DNA from: a virus
IMG/VR virus record: IMGVR_UViG_3300021964_005476
Coordinates: 1-22,613 of that record
DNA length: 22,613 nucleotides
Strand: one strand, 5' to 3'
Shown: positions 1-11,862 of the stretch, piece by piece
Position numbering within the stretch: position 1 is the first letter of the stretch
Layout of the letters: each line of letters starts with the position of its first letter
Notes under the pieces: model-generated
Seen by the model: the letters and a program-made list of their open reading frames with translations, nothing else
Told to the model about the DNA's origin: nothing
Databases searched by the model: none
Made by a program: the position numbers and the translations under genes

Positions 1-1054
1 CAACATCTGTAGTGTCTGTACTTACCTCATCTTCTACTTCTTTAAAACTGAGCATTAGTTGATCCAAACAACCGCCCTCGTTTGATTCCCAAGCCTTGCG
101 GAACTGTAGGATAGGCTCTCCGCCACTAATTGGTTCAAACATAAGCCTGTTACCGCTCTTTACCAGCAAGCCTTTTTTCTCAGCCATGTCCACTAGTCCT
201 GAATATGGATTCATACCTGTTTCATATGGAATCTTAACTTGTACGCCTTCAAACGGTTTTGCATAACGAGTTTTCATTACTTTACAACCTGCACGAATAC
301 CGCGCACATCTGAAATCTTGTTACCTGCTTCATCTTCTTTGAGCTTCATCTTCTTCATTGCAATAACAATACTTGATGCATAGATAAAGCCTTGTCCGCC
401 TGAGATCTTGTCATCTGGATCAAACATATCTTGCGATGCATATGTGTGGTTAGTACACACCATGCCAACATTGTAACTGCCAAACATGTTCACACAGTTA
501 CGCACCAATGCCGTAAGTGCCTTGGGCTTGCGGCCTAGATCGCCTTTCATGTCGCCTTTACTAAACTGATCAACATCTGTTGGAGTTAGCAACATGCCCA
601 AACTATCGATAATAAACAGAACTTTAGGACGCTCTCCATCAGGTAATGCTTTGTAGTCACTCATGAATGTTGAAATAGTTTTAGCAACATCATCAATCAT
701 ACTCATGCTAAGTTTAAGCAGTTTATCTTCACTGGTATCTACACCTAGTGCCAAAAGCCATTGCTCATCCAGTGCGTTCTCTGAATCGACCATTACAACA
801 AAGATGCCTTGCTCTTGAGCACTTTTAGCAATGTTACCTGATACAAAGTAACTTTTACCTGCACCAGATTCACCAGCAAACACAGTAACCTTGCCCAGTG
901 GAACACCTTTGTGAAAGTCTCCACTGATAAGATAGTTTAGTGCATAGTTACCTGTGCTGATCCAATCTGTTGGATCATTGAACCCAATGCTGAGTCCGTC
1001 GATACTCTTTGTAATGTCCTTGCGGAACTTTGCTACGTCAAATGGTTTTGCCAT
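1..1054 (-). CDS. uvsX: UvsX/RecA-like recombinase (3' end beyond window)
   Basis: This reads as the T4 UvsX homologue, a RecA-type ATPase that forms filaments on single-stranded DNA and drives strand exchange in recombination-dependent replication and repair. From the ATG at 1054 the frame stays open for 351 codons to the window edge, so the C-terminus is missing. Walker A is GESGAGKS (residues 61-68) and Walker B is VLFIID (145-150). A segment near residues 190-215 (NHTYASQDMF, then SGGQGF) fits the DNA-binding loop region of RecA-like proteins. The start overlaps the end of the upstream SGNH-like gene by 17 bases, and AGGTG lies four bases before the ATG as a ribosome binding site. Its partner gp32 lies five genes upstream in the same transcriptional direction, an unusual separation. 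Family assignment is firm; the UvsX name rests on the phage context. Confidence 0.93.
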   Translation of the reverse strand, partial: MAKPFDVAKFRKDITKSIDGLSIGFNDPTDWISTGNYALNYLISGDFHKGVPLGKVTVFAGESGAGKSYFVSGNIAKSAQEQGIFVVMVDSENALDEQWLLALGVDTSEDKLLKLSMSMIDDVAKTISTFMSDYKALPDGERPKVLFIIDSLGMLLTPTDVDQFSKGDMKGDLGRKPKALTALVRNCVNMFGSYNVGMVCTNHTYASQDMFDPDDKISGGQGFIYASSIVIAMKKMKLKEDEAGNKISDVRGIRAGCKVMKTRYAKPFEGVQVKIPYETGMNPYSGLVDMAEKKGLLVKSGNRLMFEPISGGEPILQFRKAWESNEGGCLDQLMLSFKEVEDEVSTDTTDV

Positions 1055-2000
1055 GTTTCACCTGTGTAATTAAATTTAAAATGTTTTCAGCATATTGTTT
1101 ATGCTGTTTTGGTCCTGGATGCAGTTTATCTGTGCCGTAATCCAAATATTTTGGCCTAGAGTAATCTCTTTCCATCATTGGCGATAGATCAATATACTTG
1201 TCGTGCGATTCAAATACTGCATGTACCCACGAGCACCCGAGCAGATTGACAAGATACAATTCTGCTCTAATTTTATTGCAATAGTTAATAACTTGATTTA
1301 TGCTGTGTATATATTTTACTATTAACCATTCATAATCTGTATATTCTGTGACTAATAGATTTTTATCTTTTTTGTAATGTAACTGGATATAATCTGCTAT
1401 TGTCCTAGATTTATACTTCCAAGATTCTGAAAAGTCCATTCTTGCGAAATTAGTCAATCCTAAAATCACTTTATCGCCGGCATTGATATCTGCTCTTAAT
1501 AATTGATCAGTAGCACATGATATCGACGCCCCTGATTTTGCAATATTATACTCGGGCAAATTCAATTCTGATGATAACAACTGTCCAAATCTCTCATCAA
1601 TGGCGACACCATCTCCTGCACTTACAGAACAGCCGGCAATCCATAGCACTGGTTGTTCTACTGTTCTATCTATAACTTTGTTAAAACTATTATAAGATAT
1701 TTTTTTAATCCAATCAAGTCCTTTGACCTTGTGTTTAATCTTGCACAACATATCAATCATTACACCGTAATGGTAAAAATCAGAACTTGAATCCTCTGAC
1801 AGATTTATCAACTCAATGTTATCAGCATCCAAAAAAATATCATTCATAACATCATCATGTGCCATATCATCCAGCGAAGTGTGACAATTCAAAACTTCGT
1901 TACTTGAAATTATTTTTTGGTAATTATCCTGATGCACCAAGCAAGTTTCATTGCTGTGTTTGAAGTCTACTGTGGATATCAATAATTTGCCTATTGTCAT
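1038..2000 (-). CDS. SGNH/GDSL-like hydrolase domain protein
   Basis: A 320-residue protein. The first ~115 residues are not recognised. The rest resembles the SGNH hydrolase fold (esterases and acyl hydrolases that often act on sugar or lipid esters). Block I is AGCSVSAG with candidate nucleophile Ser125, in GCS instead of the usual GDS. A Gly-containing block II is near NIAKSGAS (152-159), and GLTN (181-184) matches the GxND block loosely. Block V is DKLHPG with Asp291 and His294 as candidate catalytic partners. The ATG at 2000 overlaps the upstream radical SAM stop as ATGA, with AAGGA about eight bases before it, so translation is probably coupled. No signal peptide or membrane segment is evident, so action is probably cytoplasmic or on the virion. 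A role in deacylating or esterifying a glycan or lipid made by the neighbouring enzymes is inference only. Confidence 0.6.
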   Translation of the reverse strand: MTIGKLLISTVDFKHSNETCLVHQDNYQKIISSNEVLNCHTSLDDMAHDDVMNDIFLDADNIELINLSEDSSSDFYHYGVMIDMLCKIKHKVKGLDWIKKISYNSFNKVIDRTVEQPVLWIAGCSVSAGDGVAIDERFGQLLSSELNLPEYNIAKSGASISCATDQLLRADINAGDKVILGLTNFARMDFSESWKYKSRTIADYIQLHYKKDKNLLVTEYTDYEWLIVKYIHSINQVINYCNKIRAELYLVNLLGCSWVHAVFESHDKYIDLSPMMERDYSRPKYLDYGTDKLHPGPKQHKQYAENILNLITQVKHGKTI

Positions 2001-3169
2001 GTGTCATTTCCTTGATAAATGACATTTGCCAGGTTATATAAATCTCTGAACGTTTTCCTACTGTCTAAGTTTCTACGTTGATCTAACATTCTCAATCGAC
2101 TTATGCTGTTTGCTAAGTCTTTTTCAAATGGTTGTTCGACGTATCTTAGTAAATTCTTATAACTGTCTTCTAACAAGTATCCAGGTTGCTTGTCAATACG
2201 TTTTTGTAACCTAATTTTTATACATTCTAACATATCATCAGGCAGATGTCGAACATTTAGGTAAAGAGGACTCAGTAATGCACCAATAATAAAACTATTA
2301 TTATGATAACCTAAATCTTGAAAAAAGTCAACGGTATCAAACAAACTGTTGTAATTTAGCAGGAAATACAGCATATTAAAACTTATTTTGTGCCCTGTAC
2401 TTTTTACGATGCTTAGGTTATCTAAAAAATCTTTCCAACTACCCCCATGACGTATGTATTCAAATTCTTCACCTGTTGTTTCTGCACTAATAGTCCAATG
2501 AACATTTTCGAATTTGCATACAGTATCAAACACCCGGGTATCTGTTTTACTAAGGTTAGTGTTTATTCTTAGATTTACACCAGGATTTTGTTCTAGCAAT
2601 ATGTCGAGCAAGTCTTGATTCTGTTTCATTAACAGTGGTTCACCGCCTGCTAGATAAACATGCTTGTAGTTTTTAGCATTGTCAAATATGTAGTTTTTGA
2701 AATCGTCTAATTGTTGATCACTGGGTTGTTCTACGTGTTGTTTTAGTTCGCTTGCCCACTTACTGCTGAACTCACTGCTACAATACACACAAGCAAAATT
2801 ACACAGGTTACTCCATCTAATGTCTATTGCTTTTAGGTCATGATTGTTGTGTGCATAATCACTTAACGGTTCTTGTTTAAGTTCTCTAATGTAAAAGATC
2901 CTGTCACTGATTATATCAAATGCACGTTTACCACCTTCTAAATCGTAACAGGTATGGCAATCAGGACCAGGTTGATCATTGAGCATGCATTCTTGCGTGT
3001 GTAAATTTGTTTCTCCATAGAGGATATCCTGTATACTATTGTCTTTGATATTTCCTATGCTACCCGCACTGCGTATACAATTTTTTACCTTTCCGTCAAA
3101 GTTGTACATTAACCCTTTCCAGGGCATGGGACAAAACACTCCATTGGTTAGAATACGTTTTGCATCCAT
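1997..3169 (-). CDS. Radical SAM enzyme with N-terminal twitch-type Cys domain (copy 1)
   Basis: A 390-residue radical SAM protein. The core motif CxxxCxxC is at Cys123, Cys127 and Cys130 (CNFACVYC) and would hold the [4Fe-4S] cluster that cleaves S-adenosylmethionine. GGEPLL at 175-180 is the usual SAM-binding GGE motif. Ahead of the core lies a ~110-residue region with Cys13, Cys31, Cys61, Cys71 and Cys74, matching the N-terminal twitch arrangement (a small SPASM-like auxiliary-cluster domain) of a radical SAM group seen in phages. It resembles the third copy at 10726-11862 closely, sharing SSKWA after the core cysteines and RHGG near residue 240. The start overlaps the SDR stop by one base (TAATG), with only a weak Shine-Dalgarno, so reinitiation is likely. 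The reaction and substrate are unknown. Relatives with auxiliary clusters often modify peptides, but this cannot be assumed here. Confidence 0.85.
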   Translation of the reverse strand: MDAKRILTNGVFCPMPWKGLMYNFDGKVKNCIRSAGSIGNIKDNSIQDILYGETNLHTQECMLNDQPGPDCHTCYDLEGGKRAFDIISDRIFYIRELKQEPLSDYAHNNHDLKAIDIRWSNLCNFACVYCSSEFSSKWASELKQHVEQPSDQQLDDFKNYIFDNAKNYKHVYLAGGEPLLMKQNQDLLDILLEQNPGVNLRINTNLSKTDTRVFDTVCKFENVHWTISAETTGEEFEYIRHGGSWKDFLDNLSIVKSTGHKISFNMLYFLLNYNSLFDTVDFFQDLGYHNNSFIIGALLSPLYLNVRHLPDDMLECIKIRLQKRIDKQPGYLLEDSYKNLLRYVEQPFEKDLANSISRLRMLDQRRNLDSRKTFRDLYNLANVIYQGNDT

Positions 3170-3744
3170 TAGATATCCGGAGCCTGCTTTTTAAATGTAA
3201 TTGAAAAATCACTGGGAAAAAGTTTATGTTTTCTACATTCAATGTAGAAGTTACAAACTGCATGTACCCATTGGTTTACATCTGCTGCATTTTCGTTAGC
3301 AATATTATATGGTTGCGTAGCAACAGCACCCGGGCGAATAGTTACTATTCTAACTTTGTTGTCCTGTGCTTTTAAAGTCTTGCATGCATCTTCAAGAGCT
3401 CTTTTCTGTACCCTATATGCAATAATAGCTCCAGTGGAATGATTGTCAACTGTAGGAAGATTGTAACTCTCTGTCATTGCAGTTCCTATATTCCAAATCA
3501 TCTTGGTATTATCGTCTTGCCAATGATTAGCAACTTGCAAAAGCAGTTCGGTTTGAGCAAATCCACTTTGTGCATTGTTAATAAACATGTCACATTCTGT
3601 GATAATTTTAGTTACGTGGTCAATGTCCTTTATGTTAAATCCATTACGTTGACTGATTCCAACAATGTCGTGTCCTCTGTCAGTGAGGTAGGTTGCAAAC
3701 GCCTGTCCAATGCCGGCTGTGTGTCCAGTGATAGCAATTTTCAT
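3169..3744 (-). CDS. Short-chain dehydrogenase/reductase (SDR)
   Basis: A compact 191-residue NAD(P)-dependent oxidoreductase of the SDR family. The N-terminus has the Rossmann dinucleotide loop TGHTAGIG (6-13). NNAQ at 56-59 corresponds to the family NNAG motif, and the catalytic pair is Tyr110 and Lys114 (YRVQK). RPGAV at 137-141 follows, as in classical SDRs. The catalytic Ser usually found about 13 residues before the Tyr is not obvious, and the protein is shorter than the ~250-residue norm, so the substrate side may be reduced. The ATG overlaps the upstream radical SAM stop as ATGA, and AAAGGA lies seven bases before it, a good ribosome binding site. It is sandwiched between two radical SAM genes. 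SDRs in such settings commonly reduce or oxidise nucleotide sugars or other small carbonyl compounds; the actual substrate is not visible. Confidence 0.85.
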   Translation of the reverse strand: MKIAITGHTAGIGQAFATYLTDRGHDIVGISQRNGFNIKDIDHVTKIITECDMFINNAQSGFAQTELLLQVANHWQDDNTKMIWNIGTAMTESYNLPTVDNHSTGAIIAYRVQKRALEDACKTLKAQDNKVRIVTIRPGAVATQPYNIANENAADVNQWVHAVCNFYIECRKHKLFPSDFSITFKKQAPDI

Positions 3745-4778
3745 AGATAGTCCTTTATTGATATATTGCGCAAGGTATCCTGTTTGTTTATATAGTTGTC
3801 TAATTCTATTTGGTTGCAGTCTTGCGTAGCGATATGTTTTACAATATCTTGGTTTTGTAAATTATTTTTAGCGGATTGCGTTAGACTGTTTGTAAAGGTT
3901 GGATCAAGTGCAATAGGACTGGTAAGAAAAGCCCAATCATGATCAAGTCCGACGTTTCTGGCGTATGTTGTAATGTTATCAAAATCTTTTACGTTAAGAG
4001 CACTTACGGTAGTCCATGCTTGTAATTTTAAATTTTTGTACTCTGATTTCAAATGGTTATACTGATCCACAATTTTTGTGTATCGAGTCCACTTTATTGG
4101 CCAACGCACATAGTCATGAACTTGTCCAACACCATCGAGACTTAATGTTATTATAACAGTGATATTTCGTTTAAGTATATCTGTTAGGTGTGGCAAAACT
4201 TTACTACCATTGGTGTTTACTCTCAATACTTTTACGTGATCTGGCAAGTTTGCTAAGATTTGCTGATACGCTGGACTAGCAGTAGGTTCACCGCCATTTA
4301 AATCAAGTTCAACTATTCTGTCTCTAGGTATTTGTTTAAACAACTTACTATTGTCTACTTTTATATAATTGTTAGATGTTAAACTTCCTATTTTTGTGCT
4401 AAGTCTTGCACTACATGTTTGACACGCACTATTACAGATGTTGTCAAGGACACCGCCTAGGATTAGATAGTCTTTTCTGATAAACGATAATAACTTATCT
4501 CGCTCTATACTGTTCAAACGGATACTGTGTGGCTGTTCAGTTTCTTCAGTTTGCTGACAGCGACGGCATTCTAACGGCCATTGGTTATTGCTCATTTGAC
4601 TTTTTACACTGCCTAGCCAACTACTGTTTTCCATTTCTTCCCAACTACTAAATGTTGGACTGCCCACCATATGCCCACACTTGCCTATAGAGCCATTGGC
4701 ATTAAAGCGAACAAAATGTTCTAGTCTAGGGCAGTAAAGTTTTTGCAATTTCTCGAAACCTTTCTGTAAAGATATCAT
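3741..4778 (-). CDS. Radical SAM enzyme with N-terminal twitch-type Cys domain (copy 2, divergent)
   Basis: Counting from a possible GTG at 4787, the radical SAM core is Cys118, Cys122 and Cys125 (CNSACQTC), GGEPTA follows at 165-170, and the N-terminal auxiliary cysteines are Cys19, Cys37, Cys74 and Cys77. It is clearly the same architecture as the other two radical SAM proteins here, but more distant: it lacks SSKWA after the core and has VRWP where the others have RHGG. I chose the ATG at 4778 (345 residues). The GTG at 4787 is nine bases further upstream, and a TTG near 4750 would leave only a few residues before the first Cys. With the ATG the gene overlaps the upstream sulfotransferase by 53 bases, and no good Shine-Dalgarno is seen, so coupling to upstream translation is likely. 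Substrate unknown. Confidence 0.8.
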   Translation of the reverse strand: MISLQKGFEKLQKLYCPRLEHFVRFNANGSIGKCGHMVGSPTFSSWEEMENSSWLGSVKSQMSNNQWPLECRRCQQTEETEQPHSIRLNSIERDKLLSFIRKDYLILGGVLDNICNSACQTCSARLSTKIGSLTSNNYIKVDNSKLFKQIPRDRIVELDLNGGEPTASPAYQQILANLPDHVKVLRVNTNGSKVLPHLTDILKRNITVIITLSLDGVGQVHDYVRWPIKWTRYTKIVDQYNHLKSEYKNLKLQAWTTVSALNVKDFDNITTYARNVGLDHDWAFLTSPIALDPTFTNSLTQSAKNNLQNQDIVKHIATQDCNQIELDNYINKQDTLRNISIKDYL

Positions 4779-5382
4779 ACACACCACTTGGATGTTGTTT
4801 TACATGTTCAATGACTTGTCGGAAAGTTAAACTCACACCGTCGAAGTCCTGAAGCATCTGATCTAAGAACCACCATAGCTTCATGTCTTCACTGGTACTT
4901 GTTAACACCTTTTGTACAAAATCATTGCTCGGCTTTGTGATACCTGCATTTCTATTGTGTTTAGTGATATTTGCTATATCTTGGAAATTTCTGAAACATA
5001 GTTTAGCATTAACATTGCAAAACCTTGACAGATTTACTAACCACAGAAACTGCGGGAGATAATGTCTGTTTAAAAAATTATACCGGGTAGCAAACCAAAT
5101 GCAGGTACTAGGATCAAGATGAGGATGATCCCTTATTAGTTGCTGGATGTAAGTGTTTACGCCACTGATGTAACGCTGTTGTGGGTCTCTGATGTAAACG
5201 TCGATGTTGTCTAAATCAGCAATTTCGTGATTACTGTAAACCTTTAAGTTGTTATCTCTTATTTCGCGTCTCAATGAAGAACTGCCGTTTTTTTGTATGA
5301 GATAAACAAATTGATTGTGAGATAGCATTTCTACTACCTCACAATCGTTAGGAAACAGTTCAGTATCGAACTGTGTTAACAT
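4726..5382 (-). CDS. Sulfotransferase-like protein
   Basis: A 218-residue protein with the two hallmark segments of PAPS-dependent sulfotransferases. The 5'-phosphosulfate loop is QKNGSSSL (30-37), with Lys31 and the Ser run. The 3'-phosphate-binding segment is IRDPQQRYISG (64-74), with Arg65 and Ser73. Such enzymes move a sulfuryl group from PAPS to a hydroxyl or amine on a carbohydrate, lipid or protein. The protein is smaller than most cellular sulfotransferases but in range for phage and bacterial Sulfotransfer_2-like members. Its ATG shares one base with the gp32 stop (TAATG) and has no clear ribosome binding site of its own, so expression probably depends on gp32 translation. A glycosyltransferase-like gene lies just upstream of gp32, which makes a sulfated glycan a reasonable but unproven product. 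Confidence 0.72.
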   Translation of the reverse strand: MLTQFDTELFPNDCEVVEMLSHNQFVYLIQKNGSSSLRREIRDNNLKVYSNHEIADLDNIDVYIRDPQQRYISGVNTYIQQLIRDHPHLDPSTCIWFATRYNFLNRHYLPQFLWLVNLSRFCNVNAKLCFRNFQDIANITKHNRNAGITKPSNDFVQKVLTSTSEDMKLWWFLDQMLQDFDGVSLTFRQVIEHVKQHPSGVYDIFTERFREIAKTLLP

Positions 5383-6386
5383 TATTGAGTTTGTTGTCTG
5401 CTACGGATCATCGCTAGGATGTCTTCAGCCTTCTGATTGGTTGCTGGTGCTTCAGTTTGTACTGGTGCCTCAGCAACAGGGGCTGACTCAGCGGCCGACT
5501 CTGCCACAGGGGGAATTGGTGCAGGAGTCGGCGTTGGAGTTGCTTCCGCTACAGGAGTGCTAACCGTTCCAGAGCCATTATTTGGAGCAGTTGCAGGAGC
5601 ACTGAAGCCTGCTGGACGGAAGTAAGATCCCCAACGTTCTGGGTCATAAGGTTGCCCGTCTACACTGGCTTCGAACATTTCTTGCATGATCTTTTGCTCT
5701 TCTTCACTTGGACGCTTAGGAAGGAAATCGTTCAAGTTGAACAAGCCGTGATCGTTTACTGCTTGAAGTTCTTCTACAGTCAGTGCAGTTTCTTTACGGG
5801 CCCACTTACTGGTTGAGTAGTCTGCATATCCGCCTTTGCTTGTTTTGCTTACACGGAAGTCAAGACCACGTTCATAGTCTGTTGGCAGTTCTTCCAACTC
5901 AGGATCCATCAATGCTGATTTGATGATTTGGAAAATCTGCGGACCAATTATAAATCTGCGGATTGGGTTTGCTGGTGTATTATCGTCATTGATCGCATTC
6001 TCTCGAACAAATCCTTGCATGATGTAACTACGCTTCTTCCAATACTTGCGTCCCATGTCTTCAAGGCTTGCGTCCTTGAACCATGTGCGTACTTCAGAAA
6101 GAATAGAGCATGATTCGCCCCACATTTCCACACAAGGTACTTGTACCAATGTATTGCGAGAGTCCATCTCGCCTTTGATGCCATTGAATGGCAGTTTGAT
6201 CATTGCACGTTCTACCCAAAAGAACGTGTTGTTGTTATCCCCATCAGGAAGGAAGCGAAGTAACGATGAGTCGCCTTCGTTCATGTTCCAATGTGGGTAA
6301 ATTGCGTTGTCGCCGCCTTGACCTGAAGTGCCTTGTTTGCTCTCTGCGGCCGAGAGTCTAGCACGAATTTCTGCTAAAGATGCCAT
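5382..6386 (-). CDS. 32: Single-stranded DNA-binding protein gp32
   Basis: T4 gp32 homologue, the single-stranded DNA-binding protein of phage replication, recombination and repair. The N-terminal segment MASLAEIRARL is a basic, self-association-like arm. The core carries PHW (31-33), a Ser-Leu-Leu-Arg-Phe-Leu-Pro stretch (41-47) and WVERAMIKLPFNGIKG (57-72), typical of marine T4-like gp32. Length is 334 residues against 301 in T4. Two differences stand out. Only Cys85 and Cys93 are seen where T4 uses one His and three Cys for zinc. The C-terminal ~85 residues are Pro/Ala-rich with scattered Glu and lack the dense Asp/Glu tail of T4. AAAGGA lies nine bases before the ATG. The 125-base leader upstream carries a late-promoter-like box and two hairpins (listed separately). 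Confidence 0.9.
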   Translation of the reverse strand: MASLAEIRARLSAAESKQGTSGQGGDNAIYPHWNMNEGDSSLLRFLPDGDNNNTFFWVERAMIKLPFNGIKGEMDSRNTLVQVPCVEMWGESCSILSEVRTWFKDASLEDMGRKYWKKRSYIMQGFVRENAINDDNTPANPIRRFIIGPQIFQIIKSALMDPELEELPTDYERGLDFRVSKTSKGGYADYSTSKWARKETALTVEELQAVNDHGLFNLNDFLPKRPSEEEQKIMQEMFEASVDGQPYDPERWGSYFRPAGFSAPATAPNNGSGTVSTPVAEATPTPTPAPIPPVAESAAESAPVAEAPVQTEAPATNQKAEDILAMIRSRQQTQ

Positions 6387-6397
6387 ATTGTTTTTCC

Positions 6398-6477
6398 TTT
6401 GCCTATCTAAATGCCTACGATGAGCAACTACTCATCTGTGTTTGCCTAAATGCATAACACTGCGTACAGTATATGCA
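6398..6477 (-). promoter_or_regulatory. gp32 mRNA leader with two hairpins and an imperfect repeat
   Basis: Read on the minus strand, the first hairpin spans 6477-6451. TGCATA pairs with TATGCA and an inner ACTG pairs with CAGT around the loop TACG; with a T-G wobble this gives about 11 pairs and one bulge. The second hairpin is at 6436-6419, a 6-bp stem GATGAG/CTCATC with a six-base loop. Flanking the second hairpin is a repeat (plus-strand TTTGCCTAAATGC at 6441-6453, and the same with a four-base insertion at 6398-6414). The promoter-like box at 6482-6488 would start the RNA almost exactly at the first hairpin. T4 gp32 represses its own translation through a structured leader; this may be the equivalent, but that is inference. 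Confidence 0.5.
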
Positions 6478-6511: not shown

Positions 6512-7369
6512 TTATGTTCTCGAAATGGTAAGAATTTTTTCTTGGATATTTTGCGGTATCTGTACGTCATACTGCTCAAACCATTGAGGATCAATGTCCT
6601 TGTCAGTGCCAAAGAAGGTCCAAAATTTTGCTTGGTTTTCGACATCAGCGTCTATACGCAATGGCCAAAATTCAAGCCCTATGTCTTCACCAAGTATATT
6701 AGCACGAAACACTTCTAATAGATCCCATTCAGTCATGCTTAAACTTTCTTCTGTTGGTCCAAATCCTATTATACGCTCTTCTTTGATTAAATGCAAGTGT
6801 ACTAGATTAAAATCATTGACATGAATTTTACTTACATATTCACGTAATCGCATCAGGTGATGTTTTTCTACCCAACGGAAAGGTGCATGATGAGTGAACA
6901 ACAGTCGGTTATTTTTTTCTAACAGTATGTTTGGTGTTTTTAGAATGTGTTGCAGATAACTCCTATTCTGTGCGTGGATAAGTTTATTACGACGCGGTAC
7001 ATAATTAAAGGGTGTACTGCCGTAGTTTAGCATTTCTTTCAAATAGACGTCACCATCGGTGACGTACCAAAGATCTCCTGGCAAGAATCTATCAATGTTT
7101 AGTTTTACCAACTGTTGGGTAAGCCAACCATCCCAAATATATGGCCAGCCAAATTCACTAAACTTTACCACACGAAAATCAAAGTTGTAAAATTCTTGAA
7201 TGTCTTGAATATAATCGCCATCCCAAGTATTATATTGTTGCCCAATATCGTCTACAAAAAGATAAACAGGTACCTGCCAATCAGTAAGATTTAACAGATT
7301 TTTGATAGTGAGTAAGGTAGTAACGCAGTGACCAGGGTAGGTGATCACTGCGATTGCATCTGGAGTCAT
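6512..7369 (-). CDS. Glycosyltransferase-like protein (DUF6492 type)
   Basis: A 285-residue protein resembling putative glycosyltransferases of the DUF6492 kind. It begins with a Rossmann-like strand (AIAVITYPGH, residues 5-14) and has FVDD at 38-41. A DxD-type motif (YVTDGDVYL, Asp105 and Asp107) would hold the metal and nucleotide sugar in GT-A enzymes. WLTQQLVKL at 82-90 is a Q-x-x-K-L pattern common in this group just before the DxD. Pairs of His and aromatic residues follow at 172-195. The ATG overlaps the stop of the upstream 409-residue gene as ATGA, so translation is coupled. The phage could use it on host surface glycan, on modified DNA bases or on virion proteins; the sequence does not say which. 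It sits two genes from a sulfotransferase. Confidence 0.6.
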   Translation of the reverse strand: MTPDAIAVITYPGHCVTTLLTIKNLLNLTDWQVPVYLFVDDIGQQYNTWDGDYIQDIQEFYNFDFRVVKFSEFGWPYIWDGWLTQQLVKLNIDRFLPGDLWYVTDGDVYLKEMLNYGSTPFNYVPRRNKLIHAQNRSYLQHILKTPNILLEKNNRLLFTHHAPFRWVEKHHLMRLREYVSKIHVNDFNLVHLHLIKEERIIGFGPTEESLSMTEWDLLEVFRANILGEDIGLEFWPLRIDADVENQAKFWTFFGTDKDIDPQWFEQYDVQIPQNIQEKILTISRT

Positions 7370-10189: not shown

Positions 10190-10738
10190 ATGAGCAATAC
10201 TTTGGTGCTTGCACCCGACTACCAACCTGTCAACTTTTTACCACTGAGCACCATCCACTGGACTGCCGCTGTAAAACTGTACTTTCTTGAAAAAGTCAAT
10301 GTGCTAGAGTGGTATGATGATTGGACGATTCACAGTGCAACTATTGAGATGCAAGTTCCTGCTGTTGTGGTTACCAAAAAAGGATTCAAAAGAGAAAAGC
10401 ATGGCAAGATGCGTTTCACAAGGCACAACATGTTCTTGCGTGATTTGTTTTCTTGTCAATATTGCGGCGAAGCCTACAGCGGACGTAATCTCACCATCGA
10501 TCATGTAGTACCACTTAGCAAGGGTGGCAAAACGAACTGGGAAAACTGTGTCACGGCTTGCAAAAGTTGCAACAGTGCTAAAAGTGACAGATTAGTACAA
10601 CCAAAAGTAAAACCTGTATGTCCTGATTACTGGAAATTGGTTAATGGTGTAAAAAATACAAGCGTTGTTGTACAGCACAGCAGTTGGCCACAATACATTG
10701 GCGTAAAAAATACCACGCTAATAAATCAAAGGGCCTGA
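10190..10738 (+). CDS. HNH endonuclease
   Basis: A 182-residue protein with a clear zinc-bound HNH nuclease domain in its second half. The first Cys pair is CQYC (Cys89, Cys92), the catalytic Asp104-His105 are in TIDHVVP, Asn119 is in ENCVTAC, and the second Cys pair is Cys124 and Cys127 followed by Asn128. The N-terminal ~80 residues (VLAPDYQPVNFLPLSTIHW) match a common bacterial and phage HNH architecture. It is on the opposite strand to almost everything else, diverges from gp17 by 26 bases, and overlaps the end of the convergent radical SAM gene by 13 bases. It could be a free-standing homing-type nuclease. Alternatively it could assist packaging, as HNH proteins beside terminases do in HK97-like phages. 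Free-standing and not intron-borne, since no interrupted gene is seen. Confidence 0.88.
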   Translation: MSNTLVLAPDYQPVNFLPLSTIHWTAAVKLYFLEKVNVLEWYDDWTIHSATIEMQVPAVVVTKKGFKREKHGKMRFTRHNMFLRDLFSCQYCGEAYSGRNLTIDHVVPLSKGGKTNWENCVTACKSCNSAKSDRLVQPKVKPVCPDYWKLVNGVKNTSVVVQHSSWPQYIGVKNTTLINQRA

Positions 10739-11862
10739 TGTATCTCTGGCCAAAGTTCAGCAAATTTTCCTTTTTGATCAGGATGATACTGTGTTTCAAT
10801 ATCCTCAATGTGTTGCACAAATTCTTGTGTGAGAGTTTCTCCTGAAATTTTATTTTCTAGACTGGCTTTAACGTTGTTGAAGAACCAGTTCTCTTGTCCG
10901 TTAAGATTGAACTGTGATTGTGCCTTTTGTATTTCTTGTAAAGCCAACTCTCTAATTACACTATTGTGTCTAAGTGGATCAAGATACTCAGGCTGGTAAA
11001 GGGTTTGCCACATGATGCTTACGCCTTTGCCGCGGGCAAACCGCATAATTTCAGTAAGCCTGGTACAATTGTATATATTATACACTGCATGGATGCCTCC
11101 ATGATGTCCCCTATGTTGCATTAAAAAAGTTACCCAAGAAAGATTCTTTTCTAATTGTTGCCAGTTGCCTCCATGTCTGACATATTCAAATCTTGGACCT
11201 ACATTTTCAAAACTCATGCTCCAGCCAACATTGCTACGCTCAAACAACTGTTTAGCAACTTGATTATTATCAAAGTCAACACTCATGTTTGTGATAATTG
11301 TTACAAGTCTGTCTTTAGGCAATAATGCTAGAAGCGTGGCGTTTTCTTTAAGTAGCAATGGTTCGCCACCAACTAGGGCAACTTCGCGAATGTCTCCACT
11401 ATTGGTCATCATATAATCAATAACCTGTGTGTGATAAGGTTTGACGCCATTGTCTACATATTCCTTTTTAAGTCCTGCCCACTTACTACTGCAATATGGT
11501 CCGCAATAGTTGCAACTTAGGTTACAAGTAATGTTCCAACGCACGTCAATTAAAGTAGGAAGATGTTCAGTTAACTCGGCAGTTTGAGCGTCAAATTCTG
11601 GATTTACATTGTTATGCCAGTCACGTTCGCTACTACCATTACGCTCTGCTTGAATACAATTATAACAGTATTCTGGATGCAAGTCACCCTGCTTGATACT
11701 AGCACGAATTTCTTGCATTTTGTCACTGTGTATAATGTCAACTAAGTTTTTGGTATTCAGGTCACCAAGCATGTTTGGATCGCCAGCACAACAGGTTTTG
11801 ACATCTCCACGAAAGTTTATATGCAGACCTCTCCAGGGTGCGGCACAATAACGTTTTGTCAT
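10726..11862 (-). CDS. Radical SAM enzyme with N-terminal twitch-type Cys domain (copy 3)
   Basis: A 378-residue protein of the same build as the other two. Core cysteines are 113, 117 and 120 (CNLSCNYC), GGEPLL is at 165-170, and the N-terminal auxiliary cysteines are Cys6, Cys24/25, Cys66 and Cys69. SSKWA (125-129) and RHGGNW mark it as the closer relative of copy 1, a paralogue about 8 kb away. It starts three bases after the stop of a 44-codon ORF and ends in a 13-base convergent overlap with the HNH gene. No strong Shine-Dalgarno is seen, so coupling to the small ORF is plausible. A small ORF directly before a radical SAM enzyme with auxiliary Cys is the layout of some peptide-modifying systems. 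No substrate can be assigned from sequence. Confidence 0.85.
   Translation of the reverse strand: MTKRYCAAPWRGLHINFRGDVKTCCAGDPNMLGDLNTKNLVDIIHSDKMQEIRASIKQGDLHPEYCYNCIQAERNGSSERDWHNNVNPEFDAQTAELTEHLPTLIDVRWNITCNLSCNYCGPYCSSKWAGLKKEYVDNGVKPYHTQVIDYMMTNSGDIREVALVGGEPLLLKENATLLALLPKDRLVTIITNMSVDFDNNQVAKQLFERSNVGWSMSFENVGPRFEYVRHGGNWQQLEKNLSWVTFLMQHRGHHGGIHAVYNIYNCTRLTEIMRFARGKGVSIMWQTLYQPEYLDPLRHNSVIRELALQEIQKAQSQFNLNGQENWFFNNVKASLENKISGETLTQEFVQHIEDIETQYHPDQKGKFAELWPEIHQAL

Follow-up and report, generated by a model that had tools for sequence, protein, structure and literature searches.

The gap between the gp32 and uvsX genes in the viral DNA described here is a cargo slot with exchangeable contents. 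The DNA is a stretch of 22,613 nucleotides (positions 1 to 22,613 of the IMG/VR virus record IMGVR_UViG_3300021964_005476, referred to below as the window), and its slot is filled by a block that comparison with relatives resolves into a four-gene core, made of two gene pairs, and one occasional add-on. The first pair encodes a sulfotransferase-like protein (ST) and a radical SAM protein (rSAM1), the second a short-chain dehydrogenase/reductase (SDR) and another radical SAM protein (rSAM2), and the add-on an SGNH/GDSL-like hydrolase (SGNH). The same comparison reveals RNA hairpins behind gp32. We propose that the whole is best explained as exchangeable slot cargo that encodes a four-enzyme sugar pathway, changes the host surface and is controlled by an RNA hairpin, a composite explanation to which we assign even chances of being correct. 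The carrier is an aquatic virus of bacteria, and the four core enzymes, which related viruses exchange as one set, probably remodel a sugar.

All of these genes lie on the minus strand, and each overlaps the next. The upstream border of the slot is the gp32-like single-stranded DNA-binding protein (5382..6386; phrog_1192, E 6.8e-65), which shows 41-56% identity to gp32 of large GenBank myoviruses, e.g. PA5oct and Atu_ph07. It is followed by ST, the first cargo gene (218 aa, 4726..5382), by its partner rSAM1 (348 aa, 3741..4787, with a GTG start), by the compact classical SDR (191 aa, 3169..3744) and its partner rSAM2 (390 aa, 1997..3169, with an N-terminal twitch domain), by the optional SGNH gene (320 aa, 1038..2000) and, as the downstream border, by the uvsX-like recombinase (1..1054; phrog_97, E 4.8e-67; PF00154), which is truncated by the window end. 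The initial annotation, which described five overlapping enzyme genes between gp32 and uvsX, is borne out by these coordinates and also in its account of the junctions: TAATG for gp32/ST and SDR/rSAM2, ATGA for rSAM1/SDR and rSAM2/SGNH, 17 bases for SGNH/uvsX, and for ST/rSAM1 an overlap of 62 bases from the GTG start or 53 from an in-frame ATG at 4778. Overlaps recur in relatives at 88/88 ST/rSAM1 junctions, at 34/35 rSAM1/SDR junctions (33 of them ATGA) and at 58/62 SDR/rSAM2 junctions, and gp32/ST is joined by TAATG at 21/51 junctions; because of this repetition, the overlaps must be regarded as more than chance. The block is indeed AT-rich, with a GC content of 0.34-0.38 compared to 0.42-0.48 for uvsX and gp32, but we reject the suggestion that this indicates acquisition, since ST, rSAM1 and rSAM2 have lower GC than their own gp32 and uvsX in every relative measured, and the bias is thus a property of the protein families rather than evidence of a recent arrival.

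Evidence that the block has been acquired comes instead from its patchy distribution and from the exact breakpoints of homology. In a set of 80 IMG/VR loci fetched by gp32 alone, and hence not selected for the cassette, the spacing of gp32 and uvsX varies between a few bases and more than 4 kb, and among the 72 phages with readable slots 24 are empty, 27 contain other cargo and 21 contain genes of this cassette. When presence of the cassette is mapped on the gp32 tree, it changes 15 times, and at least 10 of these changes are forced by well-supported branches. Slots with different contents encode, among others, a formyltransferase, an acyl-adenylating (AMP-binding) enzyme, a protein resembling Asp/Arg hydroxylases, SGNH proteins and radical SAM proteins of a second type. 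One locus, L084, is 100% identical to the window over 5,814 bases, while in the nearest other relative, L001, gp32 (96% identity in protein, 93% in DNA) and uvsX (97% and 89%, respectively) flank a 281-aa protein in place of the cassette; homology ends 9 nt before the stop codon of the window gp32 and restarts exactly at the ATG of uvsX. Directly before uvsX, at L001:3000-3110, there is what appears to be left of an SGNH gene whose middle is deleted (LLVGCSFTDPL joined to KHPNTEEHKL, identified by eye). A DUF6492-like (glycosyltransferase-like) gene located before gp32 in the window (6512-7369, minus strand) is itself an insertion, absent from L001 between flanks of 92-93% identity. As to the origin of the cassette, a scan of bacterial genomes with rSAM2 gave no match and one with rSAM1 gave only a single 10-kb contig of a metagenome-assembled genome, which resembles phage DNA, so that no bacterial donor was identified.

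The two pairs are inherited as pairs. Of the 66 slots that are resolved, 15 contain ST as well as rSAM1 and 51 contain neither (Fisher 3.7e-15), and 12 contain SDR as well as rSAM2 and 54 contain neither (Fisher 2.0e-13); phylogenetically independent pairs are concordant in 7/7 cases for ST-rSAM1 and in 6/6 for SDR-rSAM2. When all loci with genes of the cassette in the slot are considered, 33 have the complete order ST-rSAM1-SDR-rSAM2, six have SDR-rSAM2-ST-rSAM1 and seven have ST-rSAM1 alone. The SGNH gene, on the other hand, is found in the slot only in the window and L084, in L032 and in L101. Some other slots encode, between the two pairs, a small protein whose HxD...H pattern resembles that of 2-oxoglutarate oxygenases (identified by eye; no Pfam match), and a 185-aa protein that takes the place of ST in L040 and L101 could not be supported as a divergent ST. 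An acquired, co-transferred and operon-like block is therefore what the comparison of relatives supports, and the independent scattering in relatives that had been set beforehand as the refuting observation was looked for and not seen for four of the five genes, SGNH being no fixed member. One could still argue that the five genes are independent morons brought together by chance, as the dispensability of SGNH and the ability of the slot to accept single genes of many kinds might suggest; given the perfect pairing over 66 slots, and its repetition at a second genomic location, we consider this already disfavoured view hardly credible.

At this second location, 27 loci have the set again, in the order SDR(-rSAM2)-ST-rSAM1. 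The window phage shares its family with several of the phages concerned, as judged from terL (58% identity, one phage) and from gp32 (58-61%) together with uvsX (about 76%, four phages). The gp32-uvsX interval was fetched for four of the second-site phages and measures about 85-180 bases, which is too short for the cassette, i.e. the slot is empty; the second-site records that were searched contain one high-scoring copy of rSAM1 each, and where rSAM1 and uvsX are on one contig they are 27-47 kb apart. An SGNH gene accompanies the second-site set in 24/27 loci and is homologous to that of the window (profile comparison, E 3e-5). Porins are found nearby in about half of these loci, FkbM methyltransferases also occur, and the neighbours in L118 include a UDP-sugar dehydrogenase as well as an epimerase; genes for a DnaB-like helicase and a primase likewise lie near the second site. 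Two of the porins, L117:2422-3639 and L121:1594-2691 (PF00267, E 5.5e-9; PF13609, E 1.4e-34), are phage-encoded and of the Gram-negative type, and an FTR1-type iron permease (PF03239) adjoins the set at L147:9854-10456.

The junction between gp32 and ST is as initially annotated, but two hairpins inside the start of ST had been overlooked; they were found while this junction was tested for a terminator. Hairpin I (5355..5374, minus strand, ST codons 3-10) has seven perfect pairs, with p_syn 0.005 for the window sequence and a mean z of -2.92 +- 0.54 in 20 TAATG-coupled ST genes compared to 0.08 elsewhere. Hairpin II (5313..5346, minus strand, ST codons 13-24) has 15 pairs and a GAAA loop. The stretch that contains it (ST nt 31-78) folds at -17 to -28 kcal/mol in 40/40 distinct ST genes located no more than 25 bases from gp32, and below -15 kcal/mol in 0/43 other ST genes. 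Against synonymous recoding, the mean z of ST genes abutting gp32 is -4.49 +- 0.22 (n=20, TAATG) and -5.08 +- 0.23 (n=18), compared to -0.36 +- 0.17 for ST elsewhere (n=35) and -0.29 for ST behind a spacer (n=6), and the same stretch of other cassette genes gives values near zero, all of these statistics being limited by the relatedness of the sequences. Changes on both sides of the stem are seen in 6/15 and 7/17 pairs, numbers attained in 1 and 0 out of 500 shuffles, respectively, and pairing is lost when the partner is slid along. The arms TGTGA...TCACA are nearly invariant, and the TCACA arm is conserved across two reading frames.

The hairpin is not confined to ST, as gp32 is followed by one in nearly all relatives examined. 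Where there is a spacer, it is the spacer that carries the hairpin, in empty slots as well as before other cargo, and 17/21 empty slots have a stem of at least 9 pairs (wobble pairs counted) after gp32. Unrelated cargo abutting gp32 has an internal hairpin in 7/9 genes (best z -2.7 or lower), with a mean z of the nine of -4.1, compared to -1.5 for cargo with a spacer. In the simplest reading of these sequence patterns, the hairpin is an element of gp32 which the cargo has to accommodate, and its role may lie in ending the message, in message stability or in attenuation. Plain termination is doubtful, as most of the hairpins have no clear U-run in their tails, and for this reason we reject a simple terminator; an Rfam scan of the window gave no match. 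The near-invariance of the arms, in a slot that is a recombination hotspot, might instead point to a DNA palindrome used for recombination or bound by a regulator. However, the hairpins of empty slots differ in sequence while being similar in stem, cargo unrelated to ST has different hairpins of its own, and compensatory changes preserve the pairing rather than the sequence, so that we find a DNA palindrome improbable and prefer an RNA element of gp32.

The expression of gp32 itself is probably autoregulated, judging from its leader. In the window this leader contains three TAGGCA repeats (6400..6447, minus strand), a candidate autogenous operator, and in this lineage two to four AGGCA repeats precede gp32 and no other gene tested; in 85 gp32 leaders the mean number of AGGCA copies per 150 nt is 2.75, compared to 0.13 in shuffled sequences and 0.02-0.24 before other genes. 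If so, a coupled cassette would follow the regulation of gp32, which we put forward as a suggestion only. With no gap in which translation could end between gp32 and the cassette, translation of the two would be coupled, while the hairpin in the first codons of ST probably marks or protects the end of the gp32 message, or partly stops transcription, and would keep the output of the cargo below that of gp32. The annotated expression of the cassette with gp32 remains plausible, but the hairpin inside the first cargo gene suggests that the cassette is set apart from gp32 and not simply expressed along with it.

The conserved motifs and the folds fit a PAPS (3'-phosphoadenosine 5'-phosphosulfate) sulfotransferase, two radical SAM enzymes of the twitch type and a classical SDR, activities that are predicted from sequences and models. 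In PAPS sulfotransferases the 3'-phosphate site has an Arg and a Ser spaced by eight residues. In ST, K31, R65 and R70 are invariant and S73 nearly so (at least 90%) among 29 homologues; K31 lies in the 5'-phosphosulfate loop (K31-N-G-S/T-S), and R65 and S73, eight residues apart, correspond to the 3'-phosphate site. When the AlphaFold2 model of ST (pLDDT 87) is compared with the PDB (VIA), the first 33 rows are all PAPS sulfotransferases, headed by heparan sulfate enzymes, with Z of only 5.7-3.7. The superfamily motif CX3CX2C is invariant in both radical SAM families, at 118/122/125 in rSAM1, together with C19/C37/C74/C77 (28 homologues), and at C123/C127/C130 in rSAM2, together with C13/C31/C71/C74 (44 homologues). 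Against the family NF033640, with a cut-off of 170 bits, rSAM2 scores 249.9 and qualifies as a member, while rSAM1, with 127.8, has a similar architecture and falls outside. In SDR, the residues T6, G7, G11, I12 and G13, N56, N57 and A58, Y110 and K114 are invariant in 26 homologues and provide the TGxxxGxG, NNA(G) and YxxxK motifs of classical SDRs, with NNAQ here for NNAG; its profile matches in the PDB are SDRs. The SGNH protein scores 19.5 bits against Pfam PF00657, under the cut-off of 23.6 for this SGNH/GDSL family; it has the motifs GCSVSAG (Ser-block) and DKLHPG (DxxH-like), both kept in the L101 homologue.

We infer the pathway, its substrate and its role at the host surface, and we favour a sugar as the substrate. 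The rSAM2 enzyme, with its one four-cysteine auxiliary cluster, would oxidize or dehydrate a sugar or nucleotide sugar at an unreactive position, and SDR would reduce the product, with net epimerization or deoxygenation as the result. ST would sulfate the molecule with PAPS of the host, rSAM1 would introduce a second radical change beside the sulfated site, and SGNH would cleave off an acyl group if required. The product would most likely alter the surface glycan of the infected cell, e.g. to block competing phages. Of the annotated idea of one pathway for all five genes, we keep the co-inherited four-gene core, with chemistry that is predicted, and SGNH as an occasional addition.

Two other classes of substrate have to be weighed. 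The enzymes might modify a peptide or protein, either in a RiPP-like (ribosomally synthesized and post-translationally modified peptide) pathway or on a structural protein of the phage, as most SPASM/twitch maturases do; SuiB, SkfB, anSME and sactisynthases are among the best structural neighbours of rSAM2, and many of the weak NCBIfam matches are peptide maturases. Yet the end-to-end overlaps leave no intergenic room in the cassette for a precursor gene (which could be elsewhere in the genome), the single auxiliary cluster with four invariant Cys fits twitch enzymes like BtrN rather than seven-Cys SPASM (PMC9012708), and nucleotide-sugar and surface genes adjoin the second-site copy. We therefore rate a peptide substrate as unlikely, while regarding it as the most serious competitor of a sugar. 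Modification of the phage's own DNA or nucleotides, as a protection against restriction, would suit the placement of the cassette among replication genes, between gp32 and uvsX and, at the second site, near the helicase and primase genes, and the radical SAM domains are weakly similar to QueE and viperin. This similarity is, however, far under the family cut-offs, many relatives do without the cassette (their slots being empty or holding unrelated cargo), and the formyltransferase, acyl-adenylating, Asp-hydroxylase-like and SGNH proteins of other slots have no link to DNA, which makes such hypermodification very improbable.

Several observations weigh against the sugar pathway that we favour. 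The structural matches of rSAM2 (AlphaFold2 model, pLDDT 92) are mixed, with SuiB, SkfB, MoaA, BlsE, DesII and AprD4, and do not separate peptide-modifying from small-molecule enzymes; the similarity of ST to PDB structures is weak, with no Foldseek match at E < 0.1 and the best Z at 5.7; the sugar-gene neighbourhood is that of the second site, mainly L118, and not of the window; and SDR is not tied to rSAM2 everywhere, since 12 second-site loci have SDR and ST-rSAM1 without rSAM2. The missing U-runs count against the hairpin as a stop signal, and a PAPS-making enzyme was not found in most carrier records. We did not use as support the APS-kinase-like (adenosine 5'-phosphosulfate kinase-like) fold that might have let carriers make their own PAPS, as the only cases found are L004 and L107, where it adjoins the cassette, and one non-carrier, and its nearest named relatives are NMN (nicotinamide mononucleotide) adenylyltransferases. 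The protein in question, a P-loop kinase fused to an NMN-adenylyltransferase-like domain, occupies the SGNH position of the cassette (L004:12226-13059 and L107:9908-10741).

It is tantalizing to go one step further and to consider the gap as a standard port for cargo that is under RNA control. The lineage would require a hairpin directly after gp32, genes that land flush with gp32 would acquire it within their codons without loss of protein function, and different enzyme sets would have entered the port on many occasions, the present pathway being the most recurrent set found and its product a novel sulfated sugar that is formed only in the course of infection. We consider this extended scenario possible, at somewhat less than even chances.

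Known systems offer partial parallels. BtrN, which oxidizes an aminocyclitol, has a twitch domain with one auxiliary cluster ligated by four cysteines (PMC9012708); rSAM2 likewise appears to have a single four-cysteine cluster, and the BtrN substrate is a sugar-like small molecule, but BtrN has its auxiliary domain at the C-terminus, whereas the auxiliary-cluster cysteines of rSAM2 are N-terminal (C13/C31/C71/C74). In the apramycin pathway, the radical SAM diol dehydratase AprD4 and the NADPH reductase AprD3 together remove a sugar hydroxyl (PMC5461906). Here too a radical SAM enzyme is paired with a reductase encoded by an adjacent, co-inherited gene (12/12 in the slot, with exceptions at the second site); however, AprD4 is only one of many structural matches of rSAM2, and the reaction in the present case is a prediction. 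The co-inherited SDR-rSAM2 pair thus plausibly works like BtrN or AprD4/AprD3. The hypervariable islands of pelagimyophages gain and lose radical SAM cassettes and lipopolysaccharide-related genes, and are a proposed means to alter the host surface against coinfection (PMC7029224). They too belong to marine phages and contain exchangeable radical SAM cassettes, but they are located in the structural region, and the text searched mentions no sulfotransferase, gp32-uvsX slot or RNA hairpin. The free-standing homing endonucleases of T4 are inserted beside uvsX and gene 32 and include control elements of the neighbouring gene within their own coding sequence (PMC2988022); in the window, by contrast, the cargo consists of enzymes, with no endonuclease observed among them, and what is embedded is not a promoter before the neighbouring gene but a hairpin behind gp32.

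Literature searches for this gene set found no paper and, at the sensitivity used, the four-gene set is in no GenBank phage record, while its rSAM1 gene occurs in hundreds of uncultured viral sequences. Phages that are nearly identical but differ in cargo, with exact breakpoints, constitute a natural experiment on the exchange of whole pathways by lytic phages, and the products of the four-gene set, now named, could be tested directly. The hairpin indicates that the control element of one gene can ride inside the coding sequence of unrelated neighbours, and the way in which these phages end or protect their gp32 messages becomes a directly testable question.

Radical SAM proteins are not restricted to the cassette. 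The window encodes a third twitch protein, rSAM3 (10726-11862, minus strand; 199.6 bits), so that NF033640, a family without an assigned reaction, includes rSAM2 and rSAM3 above its cut-off and leaves rSAM1 below it; in the record of one relative there are up to ten radical SAM matches. PADLOC gave only weak viperin-like matches of radical SAM domains, and we reject a defence-gene reading. Between the terminase gene and rSAM3, on the opposite strand, there is an HNH-endonuclease-like open reading frame (10190-10738, plus strand; CxxC...DH...CxxC, identified by eye).

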